A stretch of 64,000 nt of DNA from Moniliophthora roreri. Taxonomy: Eukaryota; Basidiomycota; Agaricomycetes; Agaricales; Marasmiaceae. The translations under genes were made by a program, and so were the position numbers. This document shows, in pieces, positions 575 through 64,000 of this stretch (the first letter of the stretch is position 1; every line of letters starts with the position of its first letter). The notes beneath the pieces were generated by a model. That model saw nothing but the letters and a program-made list of their open reading frames with translations, was not told the DNA's origin and made no database searches. The stretch lies in NCBI GenBank assembly GCA_001466705.2, contig LATX02000154.1, positions 62,001-126,000 on the forward strand, written 5' to 3'.

Positions 575-877
575 ATATTTTGTTGGGGTTGCGCAGGCTG
601 TTTGCCTTTGTTCCCTTTATTTCCAGAGTTCTGGTTTTGATTATTAGGTTTACCAGAATTTGGATTAGGATTGCGAGGACGGAATTTCTTCTGTCCATTC
701 CAATTCGGGCTCTGACCGGTGTATCGTTGGACACCAGAGATCCGAGTGGCGTAAGCAGCAACCCCATCCATGTGTCGCCTATTATATTCTTGTTTGATGA
801 AGGGGAGGATATTGTCGAAGGTAAGATCCTTCCCTTTGTTGGAGACGAACATCTGGGTCTTAACTGTCTCATATGAT
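280..877. repeat. 298 bp tandem duplication inside gag
   Basis: The block from about 280 to 575 recurs from about 578 to 873 with an offset of 298 bases and a few substitutions (for example tgttcccagag against tatttccagag, and ttggtttacc against taggtttacc). Because 298 is not divisible by three it shifts the gag frame and creates the stop near 571. The substitutions suggest two diverged copies rather than one sequence written twice, but a bad contig overlap cannot be excluded. Confidence 0.75.
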
Positions 878-1515: not shown

Positions 1516-1766
1516 TTTTATCGATAAAAGGCTATAGGAAAGGAGGGCATGAGTGCTGGTATGACTTTTAGGTGTATGGAGCCTTTATCGACAAGAATGC
1601 TAATGAATCCTCATACGTTTGGTCAACGGTGTTTCCTTCATGTCATCCGGTCTCATCACCCGGACTGACGTAGCTGTAAACGGTATTTACAAAATCTGAT
1701 TGCAAATGAAAGTCTAAATAAGGTTTGATTTTAAGGATCCTGATCCGCCAGATCCATCAAATCCTT
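1516..1766 (-). mobile_element. Leader region of Copia copy 1, ending at a contig join
   Basis: Sequence upstream of gag on the minus strand. It is nearly identical to 2560-2810 (offset 1044), which shows the two gag loci are copies of one element. Short complementary blocks ATCGATAAAAGGC and GCCTTTATCGAC could form a hairpin in the RNA leader. The copy stops abruptly at the N at 1767. I could not define an LTR end or a primer-binding site here. Confidence 0.5.
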
Positions 1767-3023: not shown

Positions 3024-5040
3024 TACTTTGTAAGTTCCGTAGTTGATCACATACGCAAGTAATACAATAACTAGTGTTCCTAATGTACCTAGTTTAGTAT
3101 AGTACAGGTACTCTGCTTCAACATATCGCTGGTTTGGTTACCGGCTCGTAGTGTTTGTCAAAAGTCTTGAAAGGTATGCAATGAGCTATAGAATCCATCT
3201 AGATCAGCATCGGGAATTGCCTGCTTCAGTTCCAACGACATCCAACCTAGAAGAGAGTCCAACGAACTTTCATGAGAGTGATCGTTATCAGCGAGGACGG
3301 ATAGCAAAACTTTGATCTTGATACCGAGGGAATGCTATACAATATGGAGGTACAGGTTTTTGAGCGAGAGATGATGGGCGTTTAAGGATAAGGTCACTAA
3401 CGGCGATATCGGGCACAACGCTCAGGTCCGCCTTGGCACGTGGCCTTCCTTCCTTCTACCTTCCGCTTCTACCGTCCTTTCTTCTCCCATCAAGAACCGT
3501 TTCTCAAAGTTTGCGAAGATGGAGAACCGACATCTGTGAGTGCAAATGCTCATTAGAAAATTCATGCACGCGCTTAGCTTACTCTAAGAATTTAGAGTCT
3601 CGGAACGCCTTTACACTCACGCTGCCAAGCAGCGCAAATCCAGACATAATCATCGTTGCCATACCTTGATTCCCCTTCCAACTTCTCCCAACTGTCTCTC
3701 CAAAGACCGGTGTATAATTAAACCATCGACTTGAACACCTCCCGAACCATCTTCTCATATCCATAGCAGACGTCATCACCTCACGCTTATTCCGACACTC
3801 GCAAGGCGGCAATAGGTGTAAGCCCATTACCAACACACCATTCGGACTATCGAAAGTCTCGAGTATGACCACCGCTACAACTCGTCGTGCTGCCTATCCC
3901 CTGTTCGCTACACACGATGCCCATCGTGAACCCAACCCTCCCCTGCCTATACCTTACATCAAGCACTGACTACGATGTTCTGGGAGGTTGACGTCGAAGC
4001 CCAAAGAACGTCATAGAACATCATGGACCGTTCTCGACGTCAACTATGACGATGATTACACGTCAAGATCATGGGAGGCGGCTTCGTTGCCGTTTCTTCC
4101 CTTCTCGCCGGTACCTTGACCTCGGACGTACCTAGGAGTGTTCTCTTCGAACCTTATCCAGCCTGACTTTTTGTTTCAATGTCAAACCTCGGAGGATCCT
4201 CCTCATCAGGAAAGAGCTTGTCGGACACAGGCTAATGCAGGTACGTTTCTCTTGTCGAAACTATCTCTTCCCTCGCTAACCACTCAAGGCCTGCAGCATG
4301 TTCTTGCCTCATGTCCCCGAATACCCGATTACCATTCTTGGGCGATCTGGTCGGCTTCCCCCATGTTTCGTCTACTCCTGTCATTCCAAGATCTTCTCTA
4401 CTCACACATGAATCTATCCTCGTCATACTCGCGGGTCGGAGAATATACCGCTGCCGGTAAATGACGAGAAACAGGCTAGATGAAGGAAGTGTATTAGCTT
4501 GAGAGTGGGTCTGGCGAACGATGTGAGATGGCACACCACTACCAATATACCATTCCGTTCTATCTTTCACAATCCGTGAACACGATGCTCATTCCTCAGG
4601 GTTAGTGTTAGTTAAGCCCCCTCCATTACTCCGGATACTGAGAGTCCGTTGTAGAGTTATCCTCCAATAGTTTCGTGAAGACACGCTTTCCACATATGCC
4701 TAAATCACGGATCCAAGACACACGAGAGTAGATGTAAGCGACGAACCGTCTTACGAGGCTATGGTATTCGATGTGGTGGTACTTCGAAGACGTACAATCA
4801 TGATACACCCAGGCTCTCAGGAAGTGTGCTGTTGTGACTGCGATGTAACTTGTGGGCTACCTCCGTTTTTCAATTGGATCTATTGTAGTAGAATAACAGG
4901 GTTATTCAATCTGTTTCACTCGCAGGCAAACATCGGTGACAATCAGATTTCTTTTTACATTTCACGTCGCAAGTAATATATATCACAAATATATAGCCGA
5001 GTCATGAGTGGAATAAATAGATTGTTCATTCGGGTTTCAC
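3024..5040. other. No supported gene
   Basis: Only short open frames occur here. On the plus strand, 3865-3970 and 4180-4470 contain short coding-looking stretches, including a candidate GT-AG intron near 4232-4295 followed by a segment encoding FLPHVPEYPITILGRSGRLP. Stops separate them and no family is recognisable. They may be remains of one decayed gene. Confidence 0.4.
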
Positions 5041-27659: not shown

Positions 27660-29588
27660 TCATCGCCTCCTAGCCCTCACATCAACCTCCAACGGCGCCC
27701 TCAATGCAACAAAGTAATCCTTAGCCTTCTCTGGCCAATCTTCCCACTCGAATCCTTCCTTGAACCGAAACTCGTACTTTTGCATCAGCAATGATATCAC
27801 CATCATCATCTCCCTTCGCGCAAGGTTCTTGCCGACACAGTTGGCTGGACCGTATGAAAAGGGAATATACGCCTCGTAATCGAGTATCTGGGGTGGAGAA
27901 TACACTGATGCTGACGGTGACACCGGCGTTGAAGGAGAGAGAGGCGAATCAATAATAACAGGTGAAGAAGGCGTGTAGGAAGGCGCATTCGACGTTGGGT
28001 TGAAATTGGGATCAACCAACCAACGAGAAGGATCAAAATCATCTGTGTTGGGGTAAAAGTGGTATGCCCTACGATGGACACAGTATACGGGAACGTAAAC
28101 CTGTGTGCCTTGAGGAAGGAAATGACCTGCAATCTCTCGAGCTTCTACGACAGTTCGAGGTCCGCCGGTTGGTACGGGAGGCATCAGTCGTAAACATTCA
28201 TCGATGCATGCTCCTAGGATCTTCATCCTTCCATGACGAGATGCGTCGAGGGCGTCATCGCCGTCAGGGTACACTTCGTCCACTTCATTCTGTAGACGCT
28301 TGTACCACTCTGGATTTGCCAATAAGAACCAAAAGAGCGAGGTCATCGCGGAAGCTGTAGTATCGGATCCAGCGACAATGGCCAACGCCGAGTCAGAAGT
28401 GACGGTTTCGAGGGATGGTGGTGATTTTTCGAGACCAGCCTCATCGGTAAGGTGATACCATAGATCCTTGGTACGAGCACCATTGGCAACACGCGCAGAA
28501 GACCATGACCTCCCGAAATCCAACATCTTTTGTACATTATGTGCGAGAACGGCCTGATACCCAGGGAAGAACCTTAACCAGGGTATATGAGTGAGAATCT
28601 CAGACGTCTTGGCAGCAATCTCGATAAGCCCAATCAATCCATGTTTATCTTGGCCGTTGAGCAACATCTGAGGACCAGAGTTACCAGCACCAAATGCCAT
28701 ATCGGCCATGAAATCGATGCTAAAGTACCCAAGCCACCTTCCGAGGTCGACTTGAGAACGGGAAGCAAGACCTTCGACAAGTTGGGTTGCATGTCGGTAG
28801 ATGATGTCCTCGTATTCGCGGAGAGATTCAGAGCTCATTCCGCGGTTCCACATGCGACGACGGGCAGTATGGGGGTCGCCAACGAGCTCGAGGAGAGAGC
28901 CTTCTGTACGTTCGTCTCGGCGGACTTGGTAGCCTACAAGAGAATTGTAAGAAAAAAAAAAAAGGGAGAACAGCAAGGGAAACTATGACATACCTTGGCC
29001 TTTAGGGAGACCATTAGGGCCAAGCACTGCCTTTATAGAATCAACATCTATGACCGAGATTTCATTTGGACCTATAATGATATATAATTAGTTTAGATGG
29101 AATTGAAGAAGAATAGCTGTAACAACAACATACCAGTTCGAACGACTGTACCGTATTCATCATGTAGAGCCTTCAACATATGATGCTGTTGACCCTTCCA
29201 GCAGATGTACGCTCGCCAGAGCTTGGAAACTTTGAACATGGTAGGTCCGGGGATCTCAGCCAGTGGATGATAGGGTGATAGGCGATAGGCGATAACGGCG
29301 GTTATCAGGAACGTGTAGAATGTGACATATGAGATAGCGAGTGATAGAGTATCAAGGGTATTGAAGGAAAAACATAACCCCGTGGGCCCCAAGGCAAGGA
29401 GGAGGAGGTATGGTAGGAAGGTGTGCCGCGTAGGTTCACTTGTTCTGAACAATTGATGTGTAGCCTGAAAGACGGTGAGTCAGTTGGTTTGGTCATGCTA
29501 AACATGAGGTCTAACTCACAACACCAGAGAGTGCGGCTACGCCCGTTAATTTGAGAGTGACATTGAGTGCTGCGCTAAAGATGTTCAT
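27660..29588 (-). CDS. Cytochrome P450 monooxygenase
   Basis: Four exons (29588-29520, 29464-29134, 29071-28994, 28933-27660) give 583 residues with consistent phases. The N-terminus has hydrophobic segments (LPYLLLLALGPTGLCF, AISYVTFYTFLITAVIAY) followed by the proline hinge HPLAEIPGPT, as in ER-anchored microsomal P450s. The I-helix oxygen-binding motif AGSDTT, the ExxR motif in ECLRLMPP and the haem-binding FSYGPANCVGKNLA with its cysteine ligand are all present. A Pro/Ser-rich insertion (about residues 475-520) before the haem loop is unusual. The segment WLGYFSIDFMADMAFG suggests the fungal group often annotated as nitrogen-upregulated P450s; that is a resemblance only. The substrate is unknown. 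The intron before exon 4 holds a run of 12 T. Confidence 0.9.
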
Positions 29589-32043: not shown

Positions 32044-33954
32044 CCCCCCTGTGCGTAAATTTACTCATGTATCAGTTCCTGTGCTACTACTAGTCGACCT
32101 TTTGCGCAGTGATGAATGAGTCAAAGCATAGGACGCCTGGATGACTAGATTGACTCGTTGATGCCTGCGGGGCGAGTTAATGAAAAGAATACTACGTAGA
32201 AGTACTAACCAAAAAAAAAATGAGTAATGGTGGCATATGCATCATTCAAAAATACATACCACGCTTTCGACTTTGGCAAGTGTCGTAATTCAGGCACTTG
32301 ACGCCACAGAACTGACTGGAGCGCTCAGGACAGACGCGCGAAGAGATACTGCTGATAGAATTGAAGTTATCAGGGAATCTAACGGACCATAGGATATATC
32401 TATTGAAAGGATTTGTCTAGTCAAGGAATCGCAAATTCAAAAAGTCGTTTGTGCGAGACCATTCCAAGTTCCTAGGGCGACAACGCCAAGTTGTACTCGA
32501 CGTCGTCTTCATATATCATGGCGTTAATAATGAATCACGGATGGCCGCTCACTGTCACGCAATGCCACAGATTTCTATTCAGTTGCGTGAGCAGCTAGGA
32601 GTATGACTGTCAGGACGTTGGACCAACAATCAATCAAATCCAAGGCAAAGTGCTTACCATGCCATATACCAAGACATTGTTCCCCCCCCCCCGGCAAAAA
32701 CTGGCTCTGGATGACTCTTAATGTGAGTATCCATGCTGAATAAAGAGTGCCCTTTCAGTAGTAAATGATGAAACCACCTGTTATCTTCCTCAAAAGCTGA
32801 TATCCAGGTTACAGACACTCTGTGTGGATACTGATTTGTATACCTCTCTGTTTCCTGGTATTCACCACTCCATCCTCAACTTTCAGGCATTCTGAAGTAG
32901 GGATAGTAGTTTATTGTTCCATCTGGTTCATCTTCTCTGACCATGAATACCTACACTCAACCTGACTAAATAAGGGAGAACTCACGTCGAATTGTTTCCG
33001 TTTAGACTGTTTACATGCATTGTAGAGCCATCCACTACAGGGCAATTATCAATGAACCAACTCTACAGGCATGGAATCTTACCTCTGTGACAATCATTGT
33101 GATCCTTTCCAAATTCCTTGCATCTGTCTGGATTTCAAACTGGTCTCTGACGGGCCACAACATTTTCACGTAACGCATGTAAGTATAACGTTACTGACTT
33201 GCATGTCAGTAATGGTCAAGTAACATTACAGTAACATACCTTAGGAGATAAAGTAGCAGTATGTCATAGAAATGGGAGAGGATGACAATCAATGGACGTA
33301 CCTTGTAAGTAACGTTTCAGGTGAGTCATCGCCGTTGCTGTTCAACTTGCTCCTGTCGTCGCTAGTTCCCAAAACCCATGACGTGATTGATGATACTGAT
33401 CTTATCGGATCAGTTCCCAGGCTTAGTACGTCAAGATGAAGCAGAAAGAACACGTCGTGAGGCTCCTTGGCCCAAGCCAGAATCAGTGAAGAAGTAGTAC
33501 TTGGGAAAATTGTCTCTGGTATGCAGTACGTCATACTGTAGAGAAAGGAACTGAAACTATAAAAGCAGAGAATTGAGATAAGATTGTGGCTGTGATCTCT
33601 GCTAAGATAACATGGATGATGTTTGAAGTATGGAAGTTACTTTTCATATGTAGAAGCATCTATGGGTAAGAAAACAGCTATCAGCAGAAATCATTAAGGA
33701 AGGAATTGAGAACTGAAAGAGAAAATGTAAGTGCCCACCAACACTAATGCCCATTCCCAAAGCATCCTAGTGACTCTTTCAGCTTTCTTTACTATCTTGT
33801 GTGCTAAATTAGTCTATTGTCACTCAAAATAGCTGTCTATGTGCTGTGCTAAACTTGTCTATCACACTTCACTAGTTTATGACTGAGGTTCCACACTTCT
33901 AGCCTCATTGTTAGATGATGGTAGTGCTAGTCATTGGAATGATATTGCTAAAGT
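32044..33954. other. No supported gene
   Basis: Holds a C homopolymer of 12 near 32684-32695 and a small GTTACTG/CAGTAAC cluster (33185-33240). Ends at the N at 33955. Confidence 0.45.
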
Positions 33955-33955
33955 N

Positions 33956-35732
33956 CACTGGGAATGTACGAATGCGAACGTAGGAAGAAACTTTCCTCGC
34001 ACATCTGGATGTAAGAGTCATAGCGATCCTTTTCTTTGTCGTAATAAATAGACAAGTTGGCACAAGTGCCACCAATATCGTCAACTTGACAGAAACAAGA
34101 ATGCGGACGATACTATCCACAAGAGCCTTACAAAGAAAATCTGACTTGAATGTGAACGTCAGTCCCTAGTCGAAATGAAACGCTAAACTCTCACCTGGTA
34201 GACTTTGGCGCAATCTTGATAGGGCTCCTAACGGACCGGATTTAGGTCGGATTTGGATCCATCCACTCGGATTGTCGTTGTCGAGGTACAATAACAGTCC
34301 GCCATTCGTGGATTGCAATCTGAGGATATCCATCGGATGGAGGGTCAGCGGATAGGCGCTCTACCAGCGTTTGCGATTGGAGACTGGCTCCCACGACGAT
34401 AACTTGCCTCTAATTATTTCACCTCATGCTTCGGATGTTCTTCCAGGCCGTGGACACTCCGCTAGGACCTTGAGAAGCCTAAAAACCCTAAATGATGTTT
34501 TAGTGAGCTTCTTCGAGAAATTGGAGGGACTGGAAGTAGAGGAAGTGGTGTATGAATTTGGGCGTGGGTTCAGGTATGGAGGTTATACGCTCTGACGCAC
34601 CGTTCGAATGACTTGACTTTCTGTACCCCGTAGATGTCATTTTTAGTCAGAAGCTTCCAGAAACCCACAACAGAAGACAAAAACTCACTTCGGACGTCTC
34701 GACTTCACTCTTGAACACGTCAGTAGTATTCGCCGAAAACCCTCTTTTGCACATGTGATCTATCCGTCGGATTACCCGCCGTCTGAAGCATAGCAATTCG
34801 GATTGAGGATCGTCGAAGAACGCCAACTTGAGAGACAATCCGATTGGATGGGGCCCTAAATGACCTTGATAATAGCCTGGAATCAAGCGGCTAAAAGTGG
34901 TGGATTCTCACGTCTGGGCGGCGGGGCCGCTCCACTTTGGGGTTCCACATCCTAGATATTCAAGGCACTTCCTGATCTCGAAGACAAAGCCATGCAATGA
35001 TTACGAGCATTCATCAGAACGGGAGGTCAAGACGAGCTACTGGAATTGAATAGCACCCACGAAAGCAATCTATAATTGTGTCTGTCGTCTCTATTCCAGA
35101 CTCGAAGAATCGATGTCTGTACCCTAGACCCCTAAGTTGATTCTTAGAGAAGAAGTCGACCTTGTGCTGTCTTAGCTGAAGTGGGGAAGGATGACGGAAT
35201 CAGTACACCAGAGTCATCGATCTTTCTATGCGCGATGAGAAAAGGGGGCTTACTTATCTTCCCGCCATTTGCACGTTTAACGTTCATCCAATAAACGGAC
35301 AAGGATTGGGCCGCTTCAAGTAAGTGACGAGGCAACCCAATGAACGTTCCTTGATACCAAGCCACAGATATTCCGGGGGCACCAGGATTTCCCATGGCAC
35401 TTTCTGCTCTTTCACCCTTCCACTGTCAATTCCAGTGATTCTACTGTGTTCAATACAGTTATGTAGTTATGGAATAAGACTATATCACACACATTCCCAG
35501 TGGCTATTTTGTGGGCTCTTGCAATTCATGCTTTTTGGCAAAAAAAAGTCCAGCAAGTTGGGAAGTGGGGAGGAGGGTTCCAGGCCCCTGAAAGTGAGTC
35601 ACAAAACACCAATTTATTCTAGTAAGAAGTTCAGAAAGTTGTGGAAAGTGGGTGCAATAGGGTGACTTTCTGATCCCACCCCCCCACCCCCCGCCTAGAA
35701 ATACATTTTTGTGTCTTCAAGCAGCTGTGGGC
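33956..35732. repeat. Redundant contig identical to 40388-42164
   Basis: This 1,777-base block lies between two single N characters (33955 and 35733) and appears identical, over every stretch compared, to 40388-42164 (offset 6432). It begins and ends exactly at the contig joins. The natural reading is one small contig placed in the scaffold although its sequence is already contained in the larger one. Its first 286 bases also recur at 39607-39892. Confidence 0.85.
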
Positions 35733-35733
35733 N

Positions 35734-36363
35734 TCGGTTGGTTCAGTCCTAAGGTCCTTAAAAATTTTTTTGGGTCAAACCTTTTTCAAGGTTTTGGGCA
35801 TCCTTAGGGGCTCAAATGTGGTCAAATTATTCACTACTTGCTTTTCTCAGGCTTTTCCTTGGCAGAAATAACAGAATTCTGTTGTTGCGGGCACCCATCT
35901 ATTGAATATTCTGATTTCGAACTTCTTCAGTAACCACAACAGCGCCTCTGTGACTGCTGTCAGTTTTGTTCTCAATCCCGAATCTACTCACTCAGCCTGC
36001 TGCTTGTTACTGTGTATGATTCTGACCTTGAAAATTTATTTACGCAGCTGAAGGATCGTAGAGGGTGACGGAGGGCAGGTAACAAGGAACGAAAGGTCAA
36101 CCAAATTTGGTAAGGTGACATCACTTACTTTCCATATATGGCAGGTGATGGTCGGTTGGTTCCCCTCGACGGTCCTTAAAAAAAAAAATCAACATCGTGT
36201 ATTAAAAATTTTTTTTGCTACCCCCTTGGTCCCCGTCGCTGCCGTGAATCCCGACTCGTACACACCATCAAATACTATACAGGATTCGCTGCCGGTTGTG
36301 CATGGCTATCCGTCAGAAATTCGCGGACCTGCCTCACCCAGCGTTCACCCGTCATTCTCAACC
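35734..36363. other. No supported gene
   Basis: Low-information sequence with several T and A homopolymers (about 35762-35773, 36178-36188, 36203-36211). The frame beginning at 36115 probably leads into the zinc-finger remnant downstream. Confidence 0.4.
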
Positions 36364-36667
36364 ATGATCAGTGTTCTGGTAAGTATGTCGACTTTACCGT
36401 CGTTACCTTTACTTATTGTCCGTATCAAAAAGGACTTTGGTCAATCCGGCAAGCGAACCCTCGCAACCACGGAGGTTGAACGTCGAAAGCTTCTCGAAAG
36501 TGATCCTTGGAGCGACAAAAGCAAATTGACACCTCAGTGTCGTCTGCAAAGGCTGTAGACATAAGATTATCCTTGAAATAGCAAGGAGGTACTACCCTTA
36601 TCATTGGCGACATCATCGTTCGCATTGTGCGGGGATCCAGCACAAGAGGAAAGGATTTGGGACTTGA
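36364..36667 (+). pseudogene. Frameshifted zinc-finger-like remnant (C-x2-C-x16-W-x2-H-x3-C)
   Basis: After a possible intron starting GTAAGT at about 36379, a frame encodes RRKLLESDPWSDKSKLTPQ. One base later, in the next frame, follows VVCKGCRHKI and YPYHWRHHRSHCAG, ending at TGA 36665-36667. The cysteine, tryptophan and histidine spacing is the same as in the two zinc-finger paralogues at 7773 and 11542. There is no room for an intron between the two frames, so one base is gained or lost near 36538. It lies in a contig in which the other two coding remnants are also frame-broken. Confidence 0.6.
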
Positions 36668-37124
36668 ACGGGTACAGAGCAACATCTCCCCGCGTACCTC
36701 TTATTATCGGACCCCGACCCCTGATTAGTTGAATAACCACCGGAAATGAGAGGCTCAAGAGTGTAGATAGAAAATCCCTTTCACCCGGGACATTTTTCCG
36801 TGTACACTTTCAACACGAGCGTAGCTTTCTCCGTGGCTCAGCCAATGCAGTAGGTTTATTATAAATTATAGTTGACTGTGCTGCTGACGGTTCTCTTTTT
36901 TGCGAAACATCAGCTAATTATCATTTCCAATCTTCACTTTTCCTTTTCCCTTTCGCTTCTAAGATCCTCTCGTGTCGAAGTCCTCTGAAATACCCTACAT
37001 GAACTCCTCATATCTCAGGAATCAAACAGGCTGTCAAAGGGAGCAAAACGCATTTGACAAGCATATGTTTGGACATACAAGCAGTCTGTACCCTACGAGG
37101 CAAAAACCTTAATTCGATACCCCT
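36668..37124. other. No supported gene
   Basis: Intergenic between the zinc-finger remnant and the convergent monooxygenase remnant. Confidence 0.5.
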
Positions 37125-38285
37125 TCAAGCCTTCTGTGCTTTTGCATACCGCTTTCCAACCACCCCATCTGGCCGAATAACGACGACTTTAGGTCCTCCG
37201 TATGCGAGGTAATGGCGATATGCGTATCCTCTCGAATCATGGAGCGCCAAACAATCGTGTGCAGCAGGTACAGCTGTGCCACGAGGGAAGATCAACACCA
37301 GGTTGCAGGTTGCCGAGGGGTATTCTTCGAGCGTCCGAATGAAGGGAGCGGCTTCTTCCAGATCTTCAACAAAAACAAGTGCAGTGTGCTTCGAGCAGGT
37401 GAGTAACTCGAAGATCGAAGTGGTTTTGCCTCCGTTCTTGACGTCAATCAGGTCTGATGAATCGGGTGCTCTGTCTCCAGCATGCACATCTCCCCTCGGT
37501 GCTCCGTACGCGCTAACTGGCCCACCATTGCCATTGTCGTTGACTACTATAGAGCTCCAGCGATAGTTGACTCCAAATTGACGAATATCTGGTGCCCCTG
37601 CTGCATCTGCAAGCGCGAATCTATTGGACATGACCCGGTCGAGGATTCCAGTTGAGGCTTTGAGTATCTCTGCAATTACAGGTAACCGTTCTTGGTCATA
37701 TGTGTCGAGAAGTGAAAGAGGGGAGAAACCACGTTCGACTAGGCCGAGCTTCCATGATAGGTTCATCTATAATTCATGAAGAGTGAGTGGATAATAAGCT
37801 CGTGAGTAGCGAATGGGCCGGAACTTACTATGTCTTGCAAGCAGGAAATGATACCTTGGCCACCGCTTGAGCTACGGATATGAGCAGCATCTGGGAGCGT
37901 ATTCAGGACCACCGAGAAACGGCAAAGCTGAGCCTCACCTCCTACAATGAAGACTCTGCCTTCAGACGATTTGTTGGCCATCCGTATGTTCGGCCTGAAA
38001 GATAATGAAGAGATAAAATGAAATAGAGAGGTCAGTGCAATGATTATGACAATCGCGCGCTCTCACCTTCCAGTCCTCAATAGTCACTTATTCCCCGAAT
38101 TTGATGTCGTTTCTTCCCGTGGCTTTCACGATATGGTCAAGGAGCGCATTGTGATCAGAGAGGAACTCATCATGAGGGACTTCTGTTCCTCCAACAATGT
38201 ATTGAAAGAGGCTGTCACTGCTTTCAGTGGGTCGTAAGCCAACACCGTTGCGAGCCATGTCTCCCCAACGATGGGAATACTAACC
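37125..38285 (-). pseudogene. FAD-dependent aromatic monooxygenase, C-terminal part only
   Basis: Exons on the minus strand match the C-terminal two thirds of the PheA/TfdB-type FAD monooxygenases: GTEVPHDEFLSDHNALLDH (about 38100-38240), PNIRMANKSSEGRVFIVG with GDAAH across an intron, then SSSGGQGIISCLQDI, the second FAD contact, and MNLSWKLGLVERG-SLLDTYDQERLPV. The last exon (37766-37125) adds the thioredoxin-like C-terminal domain of this family. The N-terminal Rossmann GxGxxG segment is absent upstream. A TAA follows FGE in frame (near 38094) and the phase of the next exon does not fit. Members hydroxylate aromatic substrates using NADPH and oxygen; this copy cannot. It lies 360 bases downstream of the borosin remnant on the same strand. 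Confidence 0.7.
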
Positions 38286-38647
38286 AATGCGTCAAACCTG
38301 TGAAACGTTTTCCGTGTGGGTATCAGCTCCTACGTTCATCTTGGTCACGAACATCCTTGCCTTTTCCTGGTTCCAGAGAGATTCAGTTCAGACCTCTAGG
38401 CTCTAACGTACAGCAACAAATTATACTGGGAGAAGACTAAATCGCGTTCGTATGGGAGCGAAGGGATTCAGTTGTCCTGGTGTCACGTAAACAGATTGCT
38501 GACGTTCCTCTCATGCCTTGCTTGTTTACACTGGCGAGGAAGGTACTGTGTTCTCCTCCCAACGAAGAAGCATAATTTGTATCAAATTCCTAGCTCGCAA
38601 AACCTTTCCGGGGTACAACACAATATCATTTACAGATGGCTGAATCA

Positions 38648-38683
38648 GACGACGACGGCAAGAATGACGACTAAGCCGACGAA
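38648..38683 (-). other. Putative borosin core peptide segment
   Basis: The last twelve codons before TGA (38645-38647) encode FVGLVVILAVVV, preceded by a polar linker (SSGKKLSRSDLLGGKPTA). All residues are of the types methylated in known borosin cores (Val, Ile, Leu, Ala, Gly, Phe). No polar follower after the core is seen, unlike in some described precursors. Which residues would be methylated, and where the peptide would be cut, cannot be read from the sequence. Confidence 0.6.
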
Positions 38684-39207
38684 AGCCGTGGGTTTGCCGC
38701 CTAGAAGGTCGCTCCTCGACAACTTCTTGCCACTTGAAACATCTTCAGCGGTTCTCGACATTAAAGCATATACAGGTCCTTCAGTTCCCAGCTCCAAACC
38801 GTACTTCTCATCCTCTGTCAAGCCATCAACTCGATCCACCACCGCTGCCGGGTTCTCCCTGTATTCTTCAAGGAGCCTAGGCTTCAGCGCCAAATCCATT
38901 AAGAACGTCTTCATCGCAGGCGAGCCCTGAAGAATCCGATGTCCTTCGGGAACCACATGATCTTCAACTTCTCAGCGACATCGCTTTCATAGCGGTTGTA
39001 GGCATAGGAAAGTTTGCGGTTAATGTTCCGTGCGCTCCACTTCAGCGATGGGCGGTACGCCTCAATTGCGTCGATCCGGACTCCGACAGGCGCTAGCTTT
39101 TCGGCCATACTTACCTGGGTCAACGGGGCCCGTGTCACGAGGAGGGACGTAGAGGGTTGAGGCCACGTCAAAGTGACTCTGAACTTCCGCCTTACGAAGG
39201 TCAGCAA

Positions 39208-40673
39208 CAGTGAAGGTCTCAATCTTCGAAACTGCTTGTGGAAGCACACGACCGACATAGTATGCGACTGTGGTTAGGTCCAAAGTCTTTCTCCAGACAG
39301 TCGACGAGAATAGAGAATTTGTCGTTCTAAAATATCAGACAAGTGAGTAGTATGAGTTATGTGAAATCAGTAATCGTCGTTAAACTTACGTTGAAGGTCA
39401 TGTTAGCTATACCAATGCTTCCGACCTGCCAGATAATGTTGTGGATGAAAGGATTGAATGGCCTGGCCAGCGAGCATCTTGGCTTTGAAGCCTTCTTCTC
39501 TCGCAAGAGCAATTGCTCTGTGAGAAGAGTTGACGAAAACACCAGGGTGGCCGTAGAAGACACCCAAGACGTTGTATCCCTTTCGGACTTCCTGCAACAG
39601 TCAGCACACTGGGAATGTACGAATGCGAACGTAGGAAGAAACTTTCCTCGCACATCTGGATGTAAGAGTCATAGCGATCCTTTTCTTTGTCGTAATAAAT
39701 AGACAAGTTGGCACAAGTGCCACCAATATCGTCAACTTGACAGAAACAAGAATGCGGACGATACTATCCACAAGAGCCTTACAAAGAAAATCTGACTTGA
39801 ATGTGAACGTCAGTCCCTAGTCGAAATGAAACGCTAAACTCTCACCTGGTAGACTTTGGCGCAATCTTGATAGGGCTCCTAACGGACCGGATNCAGTGAA
39901 GGTCTCAATCTTCGAAACTGCTTGTGGAAGCACACGACCGACATAGTATGCGACTGTGGTTAGGTCCAAAGTCTTTCTCCAGACAGTCGACGAGAATAGA
40001 GAATTTGTCGTTCTAAAATATCAGACAAGTGAGTAGTATGAGTTATGTGAAATCAGTAATCGTCGTTAAACTTACGTTGAAGGTCATGTTAGCTATACCA
40101 ATGCTTCCGACCTGCCAGATAATGTTGTGGATGAAAGGATTGAATGGCCTGTCCCGAGTGAGACATTCGCTGGCTTCGCATGTCATGCAACCAAGAATCG
40201 CAGGATCAAACTCAAGGTCTGCGAACAGGCAGTCTTCGGCCGACACGCCAGCGAGCATCTTGGCTTTGAAGCCTTCTTCTCTCGCAAGAGCAATTGCTCT
40301 GTGAGAAGAGTTGACGAAAACACCAGGGTGGCCGTAGAAGACACCCAAGACGTTGTATCCCTTTCGGACTTCCTGCAACAGTCAGCACACTGGGAATGTA
40401 CGAATGCGAACGTAGGAAGAAACTTTCCTCGCACATCTGGATGTAAGAGTCATAGCGATCCTTTTCTTTGTCGTAATAAATAGACAAGTTGGCACAAGTG
40501 CCACCAATATCGTCAACTTGACAGAAACAAGAATGCGGACGATACTATCCACAAGAGCCTTACAAAGAAAATCTGACTTGAATGTGAACGTCAGTCCCTA
40601 GTCGAAATGAAACGCTAAACTCTCACCTGGTAGACTTTGGCGCAATCTTGATAGGGCTCCTAACGGACCGGAT
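39208..40673. repeat. Unmerged overlapping contig ends around the N at 39893
   Basis: 39208-39892 and 39894-40673 are two versions of one stretch. They are the same except for 95 bases (about 40152-40246) present only in the right version. The missing block encodes the segment from SAEDC to the CEASECL motif of the methyltransferase and its loss shifts the frame, so the left version cannot be coding. This is best explained by two alleles or an assembly collapse rather than a tandem duplication. Confidence 0.75.
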
Positions 40674-42164
40674 TTAGGTCGGATTTGGATCCATCCACTC
40701 GGATTGTCGTTGTCGAGGTACAATAACAGTCCGCCATTCGTGGATTGCAATCTGAGGATATCCATCGGATGGAGGGTCAGCGGATAGGCGCTCTACCAGC
40801 GTTTGCGATTGGAGACTGGCTCCCACGACGATAACTTGCCTCTAATTATTTCACCTCATGCTTCGGATGTTCTTCCAGGCCGTGGACACTCCGCTAGGAC
40901 CTTGAGAAGCCTAAAAACCCTAAATGATGTTTTAGTGAGCTTCTTCGAGAAATTGGAGGGACTGGAAGTAGAGGAAGTGGTGTATGAATTTGGGCGTGGG
41001 TTCAGGTATGGAGGTTATACGCTCTGACGCACCGTTCGAATGACTTGACTTTCTGTACCCCGTAGATGTCATTTTTAGTCAGAAGCTTCCAGAAACCCAC
41101 AACAGAAGACAAAAACTCACTTCGGACGTCTCGACTTCACTCTTGAACACGTCAGTAGTATTCGCCGAAAACCCTCTTTTGCACATGTGATCTATCCGTC
41201 GGATTACCCGCCGTCTGAAGCATAGCAATTCGGATTGAGGATCGTCGAAGAACGCCAACTTGAGAGACAATCCGATTGGATGGGGCCCTAAATGACCTTG
41301 ATAATAGCCTGGAATCAAGCGGCTAAAAGTGGTGGATTCTCACGTCTGGGCGGCGGGGCCGCTCCACTTTGGGGTTCCACATCCTAGATATTCAAGGCAC
41401 TTCCTGATCTCGAAGACAAAGCCATGCAATGATTACGAGCATTCATCAGAACGGGAGGTCAAGACGAGCTACTGGAATTGAATAGCACCCACGAAAGCAA
41501 TCTATAATTGTGTCTGTCGTCTCTATTCCAGACTCGAAGAATCGATGTCTGTACCCTAGACCCCTAAGTTGATTCTTAGAGAAGAAGTCGACCTTGTGCT
41601 GTCTTAGCTGAAGTGGGGAAGGATGACGGAATCAGTACACCAGAGTCATCGATCTTTCTATGCGCGATGAGAAAAGGGGGCTTACTTATCTTCCCGCCAT
41701 TTGCACGTTTAACGTTCATCCAATAAACGGACAAGGATTGGGCCGCTTCAAGTAAGTGACGAGGCAACCCAATGAACGTTCCTTGATACCAAGCCACAGA
41801 TATTCCGGGGGCACCAGGATTTCCCATGGCACTTTCTGCTCTTTCACCCTTCCACTGTCAATTCCAGTGATTCTACTGTGTTCAATACAGTTATGTAGTT
41901 ATGGAATAAGACTATATCACACACATTCCCAGTGGCTATTTTGTGGGCTCTTGCAATTCATGCTTTTTGGCAAAAAAAAGTCCAGCAAGTTGGGAAGTGG
42001 GGAGGAGGGTTCCAGGCCCCTGAAAGTGAGTCACAAAACACCAATTTATTCTAGTAAGAAGTTCAGAAAGTTGTGGAAAGTGGGTGCAATAGGGTGACTT
42101 TCTGATCCCACCCCCCCACCCCCCGCCTAGAAATACATTTTTGTGTCTTCAAGCAGCTGTGGGC
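40388..42164. repeat. Second copy of the 33956-35732 block
   Basis: Here the block is continuous with unique sequence on both sides, so this is presumably its true location. It includes the upstream exons of the borosin remnant (to about 40673) and then sequence without an assigned gene. Confidence 0.85.
40803..41830. other. Coding-like frames without a recognisable gene
   Basis: On the plus strand 40803-41027 encodes LKTLNDVLVSFFEKLEGLE and then VEEVVYEFGRGFRYGGYTL. On the minus strand 41827-41690 encodes MGNPGAPGISVAWYQGTF and LEAAQSLSVYWMNVKRANGG, and 41318-41115 encodes PHPIGLSLKLAFFDD and RRVIRRIDHMCKRGF with a GTGAGT donor. The minus-strand pieces could be exons of one gene, but phases do not fit between the first two and no family is recognised. 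The same sequence is repeated at 34371-35398. Confidence 0.3.
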
Positions 42165-42636
42165 GTATTTTGGGTGATTGCGCTGCGCTACAAAGGTTCA
42201 ACACGTCAAAGCCATGCATTAAATGATCAAAGTAAGGCATAGCGCGAAACTTACTTCACAGGCAAAGTTGCAAATGTATGCATAAACTCGATTCAACAGT
42301 TGAGATTGCCATCGAAGACGAGAACATCGTGACAAGGTGTCTAGTTTAAATAGCTGGAAGCTGAACAGTGAACACGGCACCCCGAATCTCCACCCTGCCC
42401 CGCCTGAACCCGTAAAGGCTAGTCCAAGGCCAACTACGAGTCTGGGTATCCATAATGTGGAAGATCCAAACGGGTTTGATGTAACTTTATCCATATCTTG
42501 TCAAGCTTGTCGTGTCAACCTTGGTAGCGCGAGACGCTGATATAACATTGAGTAAAGGACGATTGTACTGTAATATCGTATTCTGGTATATTCGATCGAT
42601 AACCACCAAGAAAGCGAGTAAGCAAGAAGAAAAAGG

Positions 42637-43970
42637 TCATCGATCCGAATAAAAACACCCCCTCAAATAGAACAGCGTCCCATGGTTCTCTCTCCCTCCT
42701 CTATTATCTTCCACAGCAATAGCATCCGACCCGTCTCGCCACCTCCAAACAGTAAAACACTTCCACGCATTCCCGTTCGGCCGCTTCGACCTTTCCACAC
42801 GGCCATCTAGGTCTAGCACACCAGTTTCAAGCATGGATGGGGATGTTATCTCGATTATTTGTGTTGGTTCTCCTGGGTCTGGGTCCGGTAATAAGAGGTG
42901 CGCGGGGAGATGTTGCTCTGTACCCGGTTGTATAAGGATGCTTAGGGATCGCATGCGCGTGTTGATGCTATGAATCTATAAAGCATAATGGCATGAGTGA
43001 CAAAGAGGCTGGGAAAAGGACGAATACTTACGATAACATCTTTCTCGACCATCGTATCCAACGTACTAAAGTTGCGTTTGTAGGCAAGGACATCACCGAC
43101 ACGCAAAACATTGTTTCGAGCGAGTTCGTATAGTCTTATTTCAGCTGCTTCGCTATTCAGTTTGGTTTATGTTGTCAGCATCATCGTGTTTTGGCAATTG
43201 GGCGTTAGGCAAAGACCTACCCAGCTCTAGCACCGGATTGTGCTACACTTCCTATCACCGCCACCCCCGGCGCCGATGTATCCTCCTCTCTTTCCCTAGA
43301 ATTACCCGCATTGATCCGTTCCCATTCTTCATCCTTCCACGGCGCATGCATACCTGAGCCGGGCCTCATATCCCGAACACCCTCTTCAAACTTTGTCACT
43401 TTCTCTTTATGAGCCGAGGTGAGCCAACCAAAGTATATATGATCTTGAAATGTATGGGCCGCAGCGAGGAAGTGAGGGTCTGTGAAGAATGAAGGATCGA
43501 GGATTTCTGGGTTTGGGTTTGAGTCTGGGATTTGGGAGGAGGGCGAATCAATATCCATGGCATTTGGGTCTTTGGCTGCCGCGGGATGATTCTCTGCAAT
43601 ACTCTCTCGAAACCCTTTGAACGCAGTAGGAGGTAAAAGCTTTGCGAGACGTTCACGGTGTTCGGGGAGGAGCATGTCCCAGGTTGTGGAGTTGATTAGG
43701 TCCTAAGCGCAGAGTTCAGTCTCGGTTCCCTCTTCATAACAAGTAGCGGATAGACATACGTACTGAGATATCCATAGTCGTCAGAACACTTTTGGGATAT
43801 TGGAGTAAATCGGGTAGTTCGTATTCAGATTCTCCTTCGTCATGGGCAGCTACTTTGCGCTTGGGTCTGGTGGTGCTAGTTCCTGTAGCAGGCTGAGATG
43901 AAGAGCCTGCGCCTTCTGATTCAAGAAGCTTGGCGGACTTTCGCGTTGATCTTTTGGGTCTTTCCGCCAT
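42637..43970 (-). CDS. ASX/DEUBAD-domain protein
   Basis: Four exons (43970-43764, 43702-43221, 43152-43032, 42975-42637) give 382 residues with exact phases. The N-terminus is basic (PKRSTRKSAKLLESE). Residues about 55-100 contain LQYPKSVLTTMDI followed across the first intron by DLINSTTWDMLLPEHRERL and AKLLPPTAF, the signature of the ASX homology (DEUBAD) domain that activates BAP1/Calypso-type deubiquitinases or binds the proteasome Rpn13 partner. The middle is Pro/Asp-rich, and the C-terminal third has a beta-rich NVLRVGDVLAYKRNFSTLD segment. A nuclear chromatin role is inferred from the domain. It is divergent from the gene at 44087, and a decayed copy lies at 46975-47840. Confidence 0.8.
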
Positions 43971-44086
43971 GGTTGAGCGCGTCGTGGTACTAGTCCAAGT
44001 GTGAAGCACGACGTCATGCGGATATTGTAACGCGCCCATGTGTTCGGCAAGTGCCGCTTCGGTGCCGCCTTTTCCTTTGAACTACC
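43971..44086. promoter_or_regulatory. Short divergent promoter region
   Basis: Only 116 bases separate the start codons of the ASX-domain gene (minus) and the 253-residue protein gene (plus), so they must share upstream control sequence. No TATA box is evident. A decayed copy of both flanking genes exists further on, also in divergent arrangement. Confidence 0.5.
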
Positions 44087-44967
44087 ATGCCCAAGGAGCA
44101 AAAACCTCGTAGTCATCCAGAACCTACTGTCTCACCTCAAAAGGGCAAAAGCAAGAAGAAAACGTCAAGCTCCTCAAAAGACGAGTCCTTCATGCAATTT
44201 TACCCCAGCACCACACATCGAGTCTCGGAGAAGATCAAAGCCAAGATTCGTGCTAATCCATTGCTGATGGCCTCCTGGAAAGCGAGGTACGAGTACTGTA
44301 ACAACCGAGCGAGAGCAGAGAACTCCAGAGACTGGCCTATCAAAGTGCCGAGGGAGATTATGGACCAGATTATGGGGGATCCTGTTTTAGGGGTACGTGA
44401 GCATCTTGCTCTTGCGGGTGAGTACTCCTACTTACCAACCCATGGTGACTTTGATCTGACTTTTTTGGATCCACAGCTACATGCACTGCTCTACGCCGGT
44501 GCTATCACCACAACGACGTCTGGCACGACATACGCAGGGTGCGTTGTATTCCCAAGAATGGCAGACGGGTTCCGTTAGAATCGAGCGGCGGCAGAATCCC
44601 ACCCGACTCGAAGAGAATGCTACACCTAGCCACATCTCCCCAGAAGAAGAAGGCACATGGCCCCTATTTCAAGGAACTAGCTGATGCATATGGCTCACAT
44701 CGATATTCGATTAAGAATTGTTGGGAGCATGTACGGGATCTTGGTTCAGTTCTGGATGTTTTGTAATAACTGTTGATTTCACCTTGCCAGAGGATTTTCG
44801 CCGATCTGGCTAAAAAGCTGTACCCACTAGTGACGGACGAACATTTGAAACATCTTCATTTCTTTGAGGAGAACCATAGGGGGTATCCGAATCAGTGGAC
44901 TGAAGAAGGTTACGCCGAAGTTTGTGTCGAGTGGATGTCCTATCGCATCAAAGCAGGATTGGCCTAG
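44087..44967 (+). CDS. Conserved-looking protein of unknown function
   Basis: Three exons (44087-44417, 44477-44730, 44791-44967) give 253 residues in phase. The N-terminus is Lys/Ser-rich (MPKEQKPRSHPEP, KGKSKKKTSSSSKDE). A central part has MASWKARYEYCNNRA, VPREIMDQIMGDPVLGVREH, a His/Cys segment (LRRCYHHNDVWHDIRRVRC) and FKELADAYGSHRYSIKNCWEH. The end has FADLAKKLYPLVTDEHLKHL and EEGYAEVCVEWM. I recognise no domain. Divergent from the ASX-domain gene across 116 bases. A degenerate copy at about 50310-50580 shows it was duplicated with its neighbour. The splice sites and open phases make it a real gene. Confidence 0.65.
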
Positions 44968-45351
44968 TCCCCCCTTTGCAACCCATGTCAACCCATATCA
45001 TAATACCCTTCAGCATTACCGACGGTATCCCTTGAACGACCGCCTTGAAGCATGAGCGAATGCACGGAGGCCTGGGGTTGGCCTCAGGCCGTTACAGATG
45101 ACACGTTCTGGGACTCGAAGCGCGAAATTCGCGCCACTCTTCCATCACTTTCTTGCACAGTACCACCATGTCACAATGTTAAGGCAGTGAAGTTGTCGAC
45201 TTTTTCTTGGTTGCCTTGTTTTCCTGTCGCCCTTCTCGTGCAGGGGCCCATTTTCTTGATATAATATATTGCGGACGAAGACCCTAAATGTAGATTACCT
45301 CGGTATGATATTACATCTGATCTACATATCCATGTACAGCGACCTGAACCG

Positions 45352-58429: not shown

Positions 58430-60142
58430 TTTGTACAAGATAAGACTAGTAGAAAACTACCCAAAAGATAACCTCTAAAAGTTCTATCTCAAGTTGTTGT
58501 GCAAGTGTGGATCGACGTGATCAGAGTTACTGCACTTAGAATGCCAACAAAACTCTTAGCTAGGTTGATTCTCTCTTATTGAAGCAATCTACTTCAAAGT
58601 GTTCACCTCCAGAGGAGTATATATGGGTTTTANCCAAACACACAAACACACACACAAGAACACGGTGCACAAAGCACAAAACACAAGAGCTACAGTCCCA
58701 CCAAAAGACTTGGTAGCCAATATAGTCTGACTCTATGGAGTTCAAGACTTCTTTAAGACAACTACAGTACACAGCATACTGGAAAAGGTTTTAGACCAGT
58801 TTCTACAAAGAGCTTAATCACAGGCCCAATTCCTTTGTTAAGACTCTAAGTGTGTCACAACCTGATACCCAACACAGGCCACACTCCAAAAGCCATCAGA
58901 ACTTTTAGTGTAAAGTTATCTGTTAGAATAGTGCTACAAGGCACTCAAGATGTTATTTCTTGTCTCTTATGATGCCAGTTCATTATCAGATTTCTATCTC
59001 TCTGGAGTCACTCAGGACCAATCTCCAGAGCCTGAAGTGAGGAAGCAAAACTGGAATGGCACACAAAATTATACACCAAACAAACTTGTCATGTATTCAC
59101 AATCAGAGGGGGCAGAGTTACTTGAGTATATATGAATATCTGGCTGTCCTTATATATGGTCCATGGAATATATCTACAAGAAAATATAAATAATGTCCAA
59201 TAATTCAGGAAATAATAAAAGAGTGACTGAGATACTAAAAGAGGGAATATTTGGATGTCATGGAGTCTGGCCATTAGGGTATCTGATTATATCTGCACAG
59301 GTATCTGCTTTCCAGGTGTTCTAGACTCTTAGATATTTGATTTTTCTCTTTTCTAGGTGGGTCTGGATGGACAGATGAGTCTATCTGTTCCACATTCTCT
59401 TTTCCAGCATTCACACAGCCACCGATGTCTAGGTTTCAAAGCTTCCAAGGCTGGAACATACTGTTCCTGTTCCTGTCTCCTTTGATAATTTGTTCTTGAT
59501 CTTATCTAGAACTTCACATTCCTTAGATATCAATTATATGTCTCATTGTATCTGTAGTCATGTAGCTACACTTGATCTGAGGTTGCATTGCCACTTGTTA
59601 AGTAATTTCATCTATTTGTGCCACATTAGAACTCTTTATTAAGAGATCATCAGCTTTGATTCTGATCTGCATATTGAATTCCAATGTCTGATCATTCTGA
59701 TTGTTCCTTTTCAAGTTGTCTCTCTGTTCTGATGTCTTCTCTAAGTACCTCTGTACTGTATGACTGCATGTTGCACTTTGCAGATGTCATAGAAAAGTGA
59801 ATACATTGAAAAATCCCATTGATAGCACTTTGAGAGAGCTCAGTTAACTAGCCAACATGTTCATATGGTCATAGTTAGGTTCCCTACAGGTTTCAGGAGT
59901 GATCTGCTTCAGATCTGATACATAGATAAGTCAGAATGTACAGCTTAGACACCTCTGTATAGTGTATCATATAGCTCTTTGTACTTTCCAACACACTGTA
60001 GCTTCTCTAAGGCAATGACTAGCAGACTGGGCTCACTCTAGTCCTTATTACCCATTATCTTGTGTTATATTAAAGTGTTCTGATTCAAAAGTAATGTAAA
60101 ATGAATAAAATTGGGTCTTTTCTAGGTTTGCCATATTACTGT
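58430..60142 (-). repeat. Large direct repeat, left copy (probable LTR)
   Basis: About 1.7 kb that matches 61741-63496 in order throughout, with numerous substitutions and small indels. A contig join (N at 58633) lies inside it. Given its position next to the minus-strand gag it is probably a long terminal repeat at the 5' end of that element. Contains CA-rich runs (58360-58700). Confidence 0.65.
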
Positions 60143-61740
60143 ACAAAGACACAATGATATGCATAACTTTTACCTTTTGTTTCACATGCAAATAGAGAAT
60201 ATTTTGCACTTTTTATAGTTGAAAATGAAATATATAAGGAAATTGAGGACTAGTGTGAGCCCTGAGCAGCTAGTCAAAGTGAGTAGTAGAGAAGGATACA
60301 AAATATTAGCAGAGTATTAGTTGATGGTAGGCCATACAAGGGTACCCAACCACTGCTAGTATGAAAATAAACAGCAAATCTGAACACAGAGGAGCATTCC
60401 AAAACCTGTAGAGAACCACACCACATAATACTTCTCTATCGAAAGCATACTAAAGGGAATATTTTCACTTTCAACGATATTTTCAATCCACACCCCCTCT
60501 TAAAGAGAGAATAAAGGCCTTCAATGATACACAAACAAGAATATTATCGAGAAACAGATATGAAACAGAGGATGACAACTTATCAGTGAGGGATACTTGA
60601 GATACTGAATATCAAATTAGAGGAAATGAAATAGATGATTGGCGACCAGAAGGGACCTGTATCATGGAAAAATGGAAGACAAAGCTGTATGACAAGAAAC
60701 CAGCATGGCTGAGCTTATGCATACACTTTAAACATAGAGATAGAAGCATATTATATGTCTATAGAGCAGATGATAGTAGATGGAGAAGGAAGGAACTGTG
60801 TGGAGTGGCATGGAAGTATATGTTACAGTTTTTCTTTTATTTACAGACTTTTCTCTCTTTCCTTCTCTTCCATCTCTTGTATTACTATAACAGACAGATT
60901 GACGCCCATCTCTATGTTTCTTCTTAACATCTGGACTTATCCACATTCCCAGCTCCCCTTTTTTCCTTCTTCGATATTTATGACATCATCATGGCTTCAC
61001 TTTATTCCATCTGTTTCTATCCCCTTCCGATGACATCGCTTATGATGTCGAATTCCTTCTTTATGACTTCATCGACAATCTACCATGTTCTATTGCTTTC
61101 TACTTGTTTAGCAAACAAGGATATCGACTCTGCAGTTTGTATCCAAACGAGTAGCTACAAAGGATGTATAAGTAGATAGTTTGCTAGGTCTAAGCTCTTC
61201 AGCTTGACCTGGTTCAATCAACTTGTGTTTAGCCAACGAACAAATCTTCTGAACTCTAGCTTTTCTGAAGCTAGCTCTCTAACTTGAACCTTTACTCCTT
61301 CAAGAAGGAAACTTTCCTTTCTTGTCGAAGTTAACTCCGCATCACTACGTCAAGTGTTGTTGAGTTGTTGTCGTTGCTGCGCAAGTAACATAACAGTATA
61401 ATATTTTCAAACGGAGTTGGAAGGAGAGCTGTTTGATAGAGAAAATTGCAAACAGTTAGTGTCAGAAGACTGCACAATCATCAAAGAAAAAGAATAAAAG
61501 AGATTATGGCTACAAAGCCTGACTACAATTGGACACTGTGACAGAGAAATTACCAAACACAGCTCAGTTTATATAATATTTAGCACCCAACTCAGTTTTA
61601 TTTGTATGTGTGACAGATATATTAGATTGTTTATGTTGTAGAGTATATAAAGAGATGTGTTTTGTAGATGGAAGGCAGGAGAGATACTGCCCACCGATTA
61701 CCAGAGTGTATGATGTTGTTCAGGTAGAAGAGCTACTAGT
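60143..61740. other. Spacer between the two large direct repeats; no coding content
   Basis: AT-rich sequence with short frames only. No reverse transcriptase, integrase or transposase motif was seen. Confidence 0.45.
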
Positions 61741-63496
61741 AATTTGTCTAAGATAAGACTAGTGGAAAACTACCCAAAAGATAACCTCCAAAAGTCTAAC
61801 TCAGGTTGTTGTGCAAGTGTGGATTGACGTGATCAGAGTTGCCACACTTAGAATGCCAACAAAACTCTTAGCTAGGTTGATTCTCTCTTATTGAAGCAAT
61901 CTACTTCAAGGTGTTCACCTCCAGAGGAGTATATATGGGTTTTAAAAAGGGTTTATATTACAAACACACACAAAACACAAAGAACACAGTGCACAAAGCA
62001 CAAACACAAGAGCTACAGTCCCATACAAAGACTTGGTAGCCGATATAGTCTGACCCTATAGAGTTCAAGACTTCCTTAAGACAACTACAGCACACAGTGT
62101 ACTGGAAAAGGTTCTAGACCAGTTTCTACAAAGAGCTCAGTGCAGGCACACCCTTTGCTAAGACTCTAAGTGTGTCACAACCTGATACCCAACACAGGCC
62201 ACACCCCAAGTGCCCAAGGCTCCTTCTTGGTGTAAAGTGTCTCTTAGAAAAGTGCTATAACACACTCAAGATGTTACTCTTATCTCTTACAATGCAAGTT
62301 TGTTATTAGATGTCTATTTCTCTGCAGTCACTCAGGACCAATCTCCAGGGCCTGAAGTGGGGAAGCAAAACTGGAATGGGACACAAATTTATACACCAAA
62401 CAAACTCTTCATGTATTCACAATCAGAGGGGGCAGAGTTACTTGAGTATGTATGAATATCTAGCTGTCCTTATATACTGTCCATGGAATATATCTACAGA
62501 AAATATAAATAATGTCCAATAATTCATGAAATGATAAATGAGTGACTGAGATACTAAAAGAGGGAATATTTGGATGTCACGGAGTCTGGCCACTAGGGTA
62601 TCCAACCATATCTGTGCAGGTATCTATGTCTCCAGGTGTTCTGGACTCTAAAATTTGTATTTTCTCTTTTTCTAAGTCAGGTATCTATGAGTGGATGGCT
62701 GTATCCATCCCGTTTCTTTACAGCATTTCCCTTTCTAGTATCTGCACATCAGCAGAGGTCTAGATGCCAAAGCTTCCAAGGTCGGAACATGCTGTTACTG
62801 TTCCTATCTCCTTCAACAATGCATGCTTGGTCTTATTTAGGACTTCTTATGTGTTAGATATTCTTTTTATGTCTTGTTGTATCTGTCTGTAGGTAGTAGA
62901 TGTCCTTTGGAAGTGATTTCCTTCTTTCTGAGATGACTTTGTACCTAGTTAGTTTATCTCATATTGTTTAGCTGCTGGCAAACTCTTTATTAAGAGATTG
63001 CCTGCTTTGACTTTGATCCATATATTGACTTTGGAGGAGGATCATTCTGTGATTGTTCCTGTTCTAAGTCATCTTTCTGTTCTAATGTCTCCTCTAAGTA
63101 CCTCTGTACTGTTTGACTGCATGTTGCACCTTGCAGATGTCATAGAAAGGTAAAGTAGAAATTAAAATCCCACTGATAGCACTTTGAGAGCTTGGTTAAC
63201 TAGCCAATGCATTCATTGGGCCATAGTTAGGTTCCCTACAGGTTTCGGCAGTGATCTGCTTTGGATCTGATACATAGATAAGTCAGAAAGTACAGCTTAG
63301 ACACCTCTGTATAGCATATCCTATAGCTCTTCATACTTTCCAAGGTACCATAGCTTCTCTAAAGCAATGACTAGCAGACTGGGCTTACTCTAGTCCTTAT
63401 TACCTGTTATCTTGTGTCATATTAAAGTGTTCCAGATCAAAAGTAATGTAAAATGAATAAAAGTGGGTCTTTTCTAGGTTTGACATATTACTGGCA
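61741..63496 (-). repeat. Large direct repeat, right copy (probable LTR)
   Basis: Begins near ATTTGTCTAAGATAAGACTAG and ends near TTGACATATTACTG. Divergence from the left copy, visible in almost every line, suggests an old insertion or two separate elements. Confidence 0.65.
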
Positions 63497-64000
63497 ATCA
63501 GTATTTTTCAACCACTTCGGGCTCTAGCTTATTTAGTTGTGCAAGAGGTGCAGGCTAGTTGAGACCTGAAATTGTAACCCAAACCAGAGATATAAATAAA
63601 AGCTAGGAAGAGCTTAGTTTTTAATGCAAGAGGTGTGTTTTCTGATAAGAAGAGCATTGTATCAGTTCTACTAAGAGGGTAGCTGACATACATCAGTATA
63701 GTCTGGTGTTTCAATGTGAATCAGAGAGGGTTTCAGGCTAGCAGTGTCTAGAAGGTTTGTCCTCTTGAGAATTGTTGCAGAACATAGCTAAGAGGGCTAT
63801 ATTCAGGTACAAGAGGTACCTTTGTTCTCACTTAGAAGAAGTTTAATCTTCAGGCAGTTTCTGGTCAAACCTTATACCAGTTTTGCTTTCAAAGTGATTA
63901 ATAAAACTACAAAACCAATAAATATTATACAAACAAACACCCATTCTTGATCTGAGAAGTTGTTTTGAAGGCAATCATCTCTGAACTACTGAGCAAGACA
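63497..64000. other. No supported gene
   Basis: Sequence unlike the left flank of the repeat; repeated GCAAGAGGTG motifs (63540, 63626) but nothing recognisable up to the window end. Confidence 0.4.

Follow-up and report, generated by a model that had tools for sequence, protein, structure and literature searches.

Which gene the borosin-like pieces in this part of the Moniliophthora roreri genome derive from, and whether their damage reflects decay or poor sequence, is the question raised by this locus. In working fused borosins, an N-terminal SAM-dependent methyltransferase methylates its own C-terminal core at the backbone amide nitrogens, assisted by a clasp domain, and the core is cut off later. 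A first-pass annotation of the window, i.e., the whole stretch of 64,000 nucleotides that was analysed (contig C74, positions 62001-126000), had described 38645..40673 as the relic of an omphalotin-type precursor gene of this family. The pieces were compared with PDB, Pfam and NCBIfam, and the genome (59.4 Mb in 154 contigs) was searched for further copies.

Pieces of a fused borosin precursor, comprising exons 2 and 3 and the end of exon 1, were identified on the minus strand between window positions 38645 and 40505 (Table 1). They include a borosin-type SAM-dependent methyltransferase domain, the N-terminal part of which is deleted, and a clasp after it. Both peptides quoted in the first-pass annotation are present on the minus strand, far beyond chance: the 18-residue segment occurs in 40076-40381 and in 39390-39600, and the clasp motif FLMDLALKPRLLEEY in the frame 38645-38971. 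Among 177,635 distinct PDB sequences, 25 matched the exon 2 frame (112 aa) at E<=1e-3, with MroMA1/MroMA2 as the best (E=4.8e-43). The matches comprised peptide N-methyltransferases of the MroMA, dbOphM and OphA types along with SonM-type split-borosin enzymes, a part of the latter carrying no label beyond 'TP-methylase family protein'. The clasp-core piece (108 aa) retrieved 27 distinct PDB sequences at E<=1, i.e., four MroMA rows (E 7.2e-14 for MroMA2 to 2e-13), 15 OphA/dbOphM rows (1.6e-5 to 7.7e-5), seven weak SonA-type rows (0.056-0.085) and a single nitrogenase chain (E 0.74), which was taken for noise. Exon 2 and the clasp-core piece thus both match borosins, in agreement with the proposed relic of an omphalotin-type precursor. 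The window copy terminates with the hydrophobic core TAFVGLVVILAVVV followed by a stop, and no follower peptide was present in this copy after the core segment GGKPTAFVGLVVILAVVV.

Table 1. Features of the borosin locus and its surroundings (window coordinates)
Feature	Position	Strand	Basis
Exon 1 end, third occurrence, inside 33956-35732	33996..34073	-	coordinates by offset
Exon 3, left-contig copy (methyltransferase domain end, clasp, core, stop)	38645..39326	-	paralogue alignment
C-terminal core segment GGKPTAFVGLVVILAVVV and stop codon	38645..38701	-	core placed from the MroMA and C100 alignments
Exon 2 (methyltransferase), left-contig copy, lacking 95 bases of the right copy	39390..39600	-	
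Exon 1 remaining end (26 residues), left-contig copy	39647..39724	-	paralogue alignment
Single N, contig join; same gene part repeated in both flanks	39893..39893	.	
Exon 3 start, right-contig copy, truncated by the N	39894..40012	-	
Exon 2 (methyltransferase), right-contig copy, open	40076..40381	-	PDB matches
Exon 1 remaining end, right-contig copy	40428..40505	-	
Remnant of sequence preceding the start codon	40507..40613	-	86% identical to C100:202041-202147
Dispersed repeat, about 640 bp, inverted ends; upstream of the relic	40652..41290	.	genome matches

The window contains six single Ns (1767, 3023, 33955, 35733, 39893 and 58633), which look like joins of overlapping contig ends. On either side of the N at 39893, the stretches 39208-39892 and 39894-40673 differ solely in 95 bases of exon 2, present on the right side only, and are otherwise 100% identical; the left contig end reaches 22 bases into the dispersed repeat that starts at 40652 on the right. 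As the two flanks repeat the same gene part, 38645-40673 represents two overlapping partial copies and not one gene. The single gene drawn there initially would cross this N and has no N-terminus, and its end at 40673 has to be withdrawn as well, as it lies 22 bases inside the dispersed repeat upstream of the gene. To judge from the sequence, the doubling around 39893 would be due either to an overlap of contig ends or to a very recent duplication. The segment 33956-35732, bounded by single Ns, does not differ from 40388-42164 in a single base and is a contained contig or a recent duplicate. The stretches 727-1766 and 1768-2810, on the two sides of the N at 1767, are likewise repeats of one another (97%).

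A genome search returned five rows for the exon 2 piece, three within the window and one each on the contigs C104 (94% aa) and C100 (93% aa), and three rows for the clasp-core piece, in the window, on C104 (91% aa) and on C100 (84% aa). In DNA, the main blocks are 93-94% identical between the window and C104 and 90-91% between the window and C100, and the neighbours of the C104 copy differ from those in the window. A whole-genome profile search with PF00590 gave matches at two places, on C70 and C91, and none at any of the three borosin loci; as genes can thus escape a search that goes exon by exon, a further copy may exist.

Relative to C100, both the window and the C104 copy lack about 254 bp, as the C100 matches jump from 202147 to 202402 where those in the window pass from 40507 to 40504. 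This deletion removed the start codon (C100:202197) and about 68 N-terminal codons, in which the SAM-binding loop presumably lay. According to the alignment, a 4-base insertion in exon 3 is likewise common to the two copies. Because the C104 copy has both the deletion and the insertion, these lesions were inherited, and together with the repeat found upstream of both copies they point to one truncated ancestor. Other lesions are private. The window copy has a loss where intron 1 ends and exon 2 begins, at the acceptor (17 bases compared to C100, 21 compared to C104), and suffered one further 2-base and one 1-base loss, and in C104 the acceptor AG is altered. Exon 3 of the left-contig copy is out of frame by three small indels, their net length not being a multiple of 3. 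The loss of the N-terminal codons is thus followed by frameshifts. The window copy is not a complete open gene for a fused protein, and since its start is lost and its frame shifted, it is a relic of the borosin family and not a working member.

We propose that the window very probably carries a pseudogene of an MroMA-type fused borosin precursor. A truncated ancestor with the repeat upstream would have arisen by the loss of about 254 bp and the 4-base insertion; the C74 and C104 copies would each have gained their private lesions afterwards. On C100 all coding exons are still open, and the hydrophobic core is a different one. The alternative that an intact gene is concealed by poor assembly, in which overlapping contigs, the N and indel errors mimic decay, appears improbable. 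It would fit the single-N joins near the locus, the exact duplicates found there and the 95-base difference between two otherwise identical contig ends; however, both the loss of the N-terminus and the 4 inserted bases are seen again in C104, in DNA that is 6-7% different and has other neighbours. The first-pass annotation had left the choice between a decayed and a poorly sequenced gene undecided. Decay is favoured, because C104 has the same N-terminal loss and one frameshift, and the assembly trouble at the 39893 join comes on top of it.

The tempo of substitution was compared among the three copies. Outside the core, C100 and C74 differ by a dN of 0.043 and a dS of 0.18 over 338 codons, whereas in the last 13 comparable codons dN amounts to 0.55 (11 nonsynonymous and 4 synonymous changes), a count which excludes two stop-containing columns and is taken from a short and unconstrained alignment. 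Between C100 and the other two copies, the core region thus appears to change many times faster than the rest, as is expected for a ribosomal peptide precursor. Between C104 and C74, omega was about 0.58 (P=0.048) in one direction and 0.71 (P=0.17) in the other in a test that preserves the types of change, with small numbers and several uncorrected tests. With the same restriction to small numbers and uncorrected tests, the C74 lineage has 15 synonymous and 11 nonsynonymous changes (P=0.012) and the C104 lineage 3 and 16 (P=0.97). The changes in C104 fit a loss of constraint. Those in C74 speak partly against a long-dead gene, and one may speculate that a recent death or gene conversion would fit. 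The substitutions between C104 and C74, not being fully neutral in one test direction, would in part argue against the pseudogene reading.

It was also considered that the truncated copies, that on C104 above all, encode a free clasp-plus-core protein that is methylated in trans by the C100 enzyme, in which case they would be fungal split borosin substrates and one enzyme would serve two different cores. A 154-codon open frame on C104 (428613-429077) indeed begins at an internal ATG and covers both clasp and core, the clasp-core piece weakly resembles the separate SonA-type substrates (E 0.056), and omega is below 1 in the C74 lineage. However, a 1-base loss interrupts this frame in the window, and on C104 it displays no sign of constraint, its clasp part having accumulated 0 synonymous and 10 nonsynonymous changes in the C104 lineage where 3.1 synonymous ones would be expected under neutrality (5 and 4 in the C74 lineage), and we regard such a function as less probable still than a concealed intact gene. 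That a general tetrapyrrole-methylase-type gene adjoins an unrelated C-terminal exon, as might be read from the sub-threshold match of exon 2 to TP_methylase (PF00590; 25.1 bits, cut-off 27.8; the sole NCBIfam match, YabN, is far under its cut-off), has a practically negligible probability: exon 2 and the clasp piece have borosin chains in common among their matches, all good PDB matches of the clasp piece are borosins while it has no match in Pfam or NCBIfam, C104 and, with all exons open, C100 have the exons in the same order, and the one of the two PF00590 places that was examined, on C70, is a diphthine synthase, so that neither of the two arrangements named in the first-pass annotation as speaking against it, a tetrapyrrole methylase without a clasp or a C-terminal exon from another gene, was encountered.

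With the pseudogene reading retained for the window, the copy on C100 is an intact-looking paralogue, of the kind that the first-pass annotation had suggested looking for elsewhere in the genome. Its three open exons (L022 4197-4478, 4540-4848 and 4912-5598, the ATG at L022 4197 being C100:202197) encode 425 aa, with methyltransferase and clasp fused in one open frame and the exons in the same order as in the window and on C104, but its first intron has GA..AG boundaries. The protein aligns with MroMA2 over residues 16-418 (E=5.6e-127), without gaps at both exon junctions and with gaps further on. Its core, TAFLSAVVIATIIIAL, is hydrophobic and differs from that of the window copy. Intron 2 is GT..AG. 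Intron 1 (L022:4479-4539) is GA..AG, and its donor letters are identical in C104 and the window. Seven in-frame options are listed for this intron, and GA..AG at 4479-4539 alone gives the junction seen in MroMA. Two of the GT..AG type that have their donor at 4483 would make the protein three or four residues shorter at this place, two with the donor at 4450 would make it 14 or 15 residues shorter, and of two GC..AG options one results in a protein 7 residues shorter and the other, with a 40-base intron, in one 7 residues longer; these were rejected. As the first intron is GA..AG and not GT..AG, expression of the C100 gene is uncertain, and the boundary could mean that a rare GA..AG splice is used, that the intron is spliced differently or that the gene was disabled recently. 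By its sequence the C100 copy is likely a working gene, which would be spliced and expressed and its product presumably methylated; lacking a GT..AG boundary at intron 1, it may also be disabled. With its core, this copy is a concrete gene worth testing. Copia-type gag frames (PF14223) were observed in the window (574-1584, minus strand) and at C100:200872-201345, the latter at a distance of about 850 bp upstream from the start codon of the borosin gene.

The dispersed repeat of 40652-41290, which is presumably MITE-like, is also located upstream of the C104 copy, has a second place in the window (34220-34858) and, among the 40 of 59 candidates scored, occurs at no fewer than ten places beyond the two in the window, at 68-88% and in one case short. 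At a second dispersed repeat, 41805-42115, most of the 48 rows listed match (68-85%). Downstream of the relic, a C-terminal FAD monooxygenase fragment (37125-38319, minus strand) meets the borosin 3' flank at 38319/38323. Its best genome relative is on C104 (94%), with 20 other places at 35-42%; in C100:178001-227000 no match to it was found. On C104, a VGAGPSGL motif at 424632 with a PF01494 match (E=3.3e-17) lies upstream of the borosin copy, whereas a simple search of window positions 33001-45000, which would miss a motif split by an intron, returned no dinucleotide-binding motif; as four other relatives searched in this way gave no convincing hit either, the test is a weak one. The order is monooxygenase, repeat and borosin on C104, and borosin followed by a truncated monooxygenase in the window. 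Given these orders, a tandem repeat of a borosin and flavin monooxygenase unit was considered; it was not accepted, since no second monooxygenase match was obtained upstream of the right-hand window copy and single Ns flank the decisive pieces.

Omphalotin-type gene clusters have a prolyl oligopeptidase gene near the precursor gene. Exon-by-exon searches with two prolyl oligopeptidase families, in which intron-rich genes can be missed, gave no genome match to PF02897 and 18 matches to PF00326, none of them on C74, C100 or C104. Around the C100 copy (178001-227000), ten of the 30 frames of at least 150 aa were scanned; two are ubiquitin hydrolase pieces, one each is questin oxidase-like, a cellulase, a DUF2855 protein and a copia-type gag, and four had no match. 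Elsewhere in the window, a cytochrome P450 frame (27663-28982, minus strand; PF00067, E=1.5e-51) lies about 10 kb from the relic, and several blocks in 58588-64000 represent repeated DNA, being 83-94% similar to C104:414282-421310, some of them twice.

The borosin family is already known. What is added here is a single genome in which one copy has open exons and two copies are dead and truncated, so that the family is seen growing and dying. The closest solved relatives of the window pieces are MroMA1 and MroMA2 (PDB 7twk, 7twl), which we take to be from Mycena rosella. As in these, methyltransferase, clasp and C-terminal core belong to one chain, and the core is located at the C-terminus or within a few residues of it; MroMA1 and the window copy also have TAF ahead of the hydrophobic core. 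In contrast to both, the N-terminus is missing from the window copy, which is also out of frame, and its core has other residues; the copy on C100 has the full length. The fused architecture is also that of OphMA/dbOphMA (PDB 5n0n, 6mjg and others), which the C100 protein matches at E about 1e-94 to 2.5e-99, whereas the match of the window clasp is weaker (about 2e-5) and the omphalotin core with its follower was not found in the copies here. The methyltransferase domain is furthermore similar to that of the split borosins SonM/SonA (PDB 7ltc, 8t1s; E=3.3e-37 for the C100 protein), and SonA displays a weak similarity to the window clasp piece (E 0.056). However, enzyme and substrate are separate in SonM/SonA, whereas they are fused in the open frame on C100.
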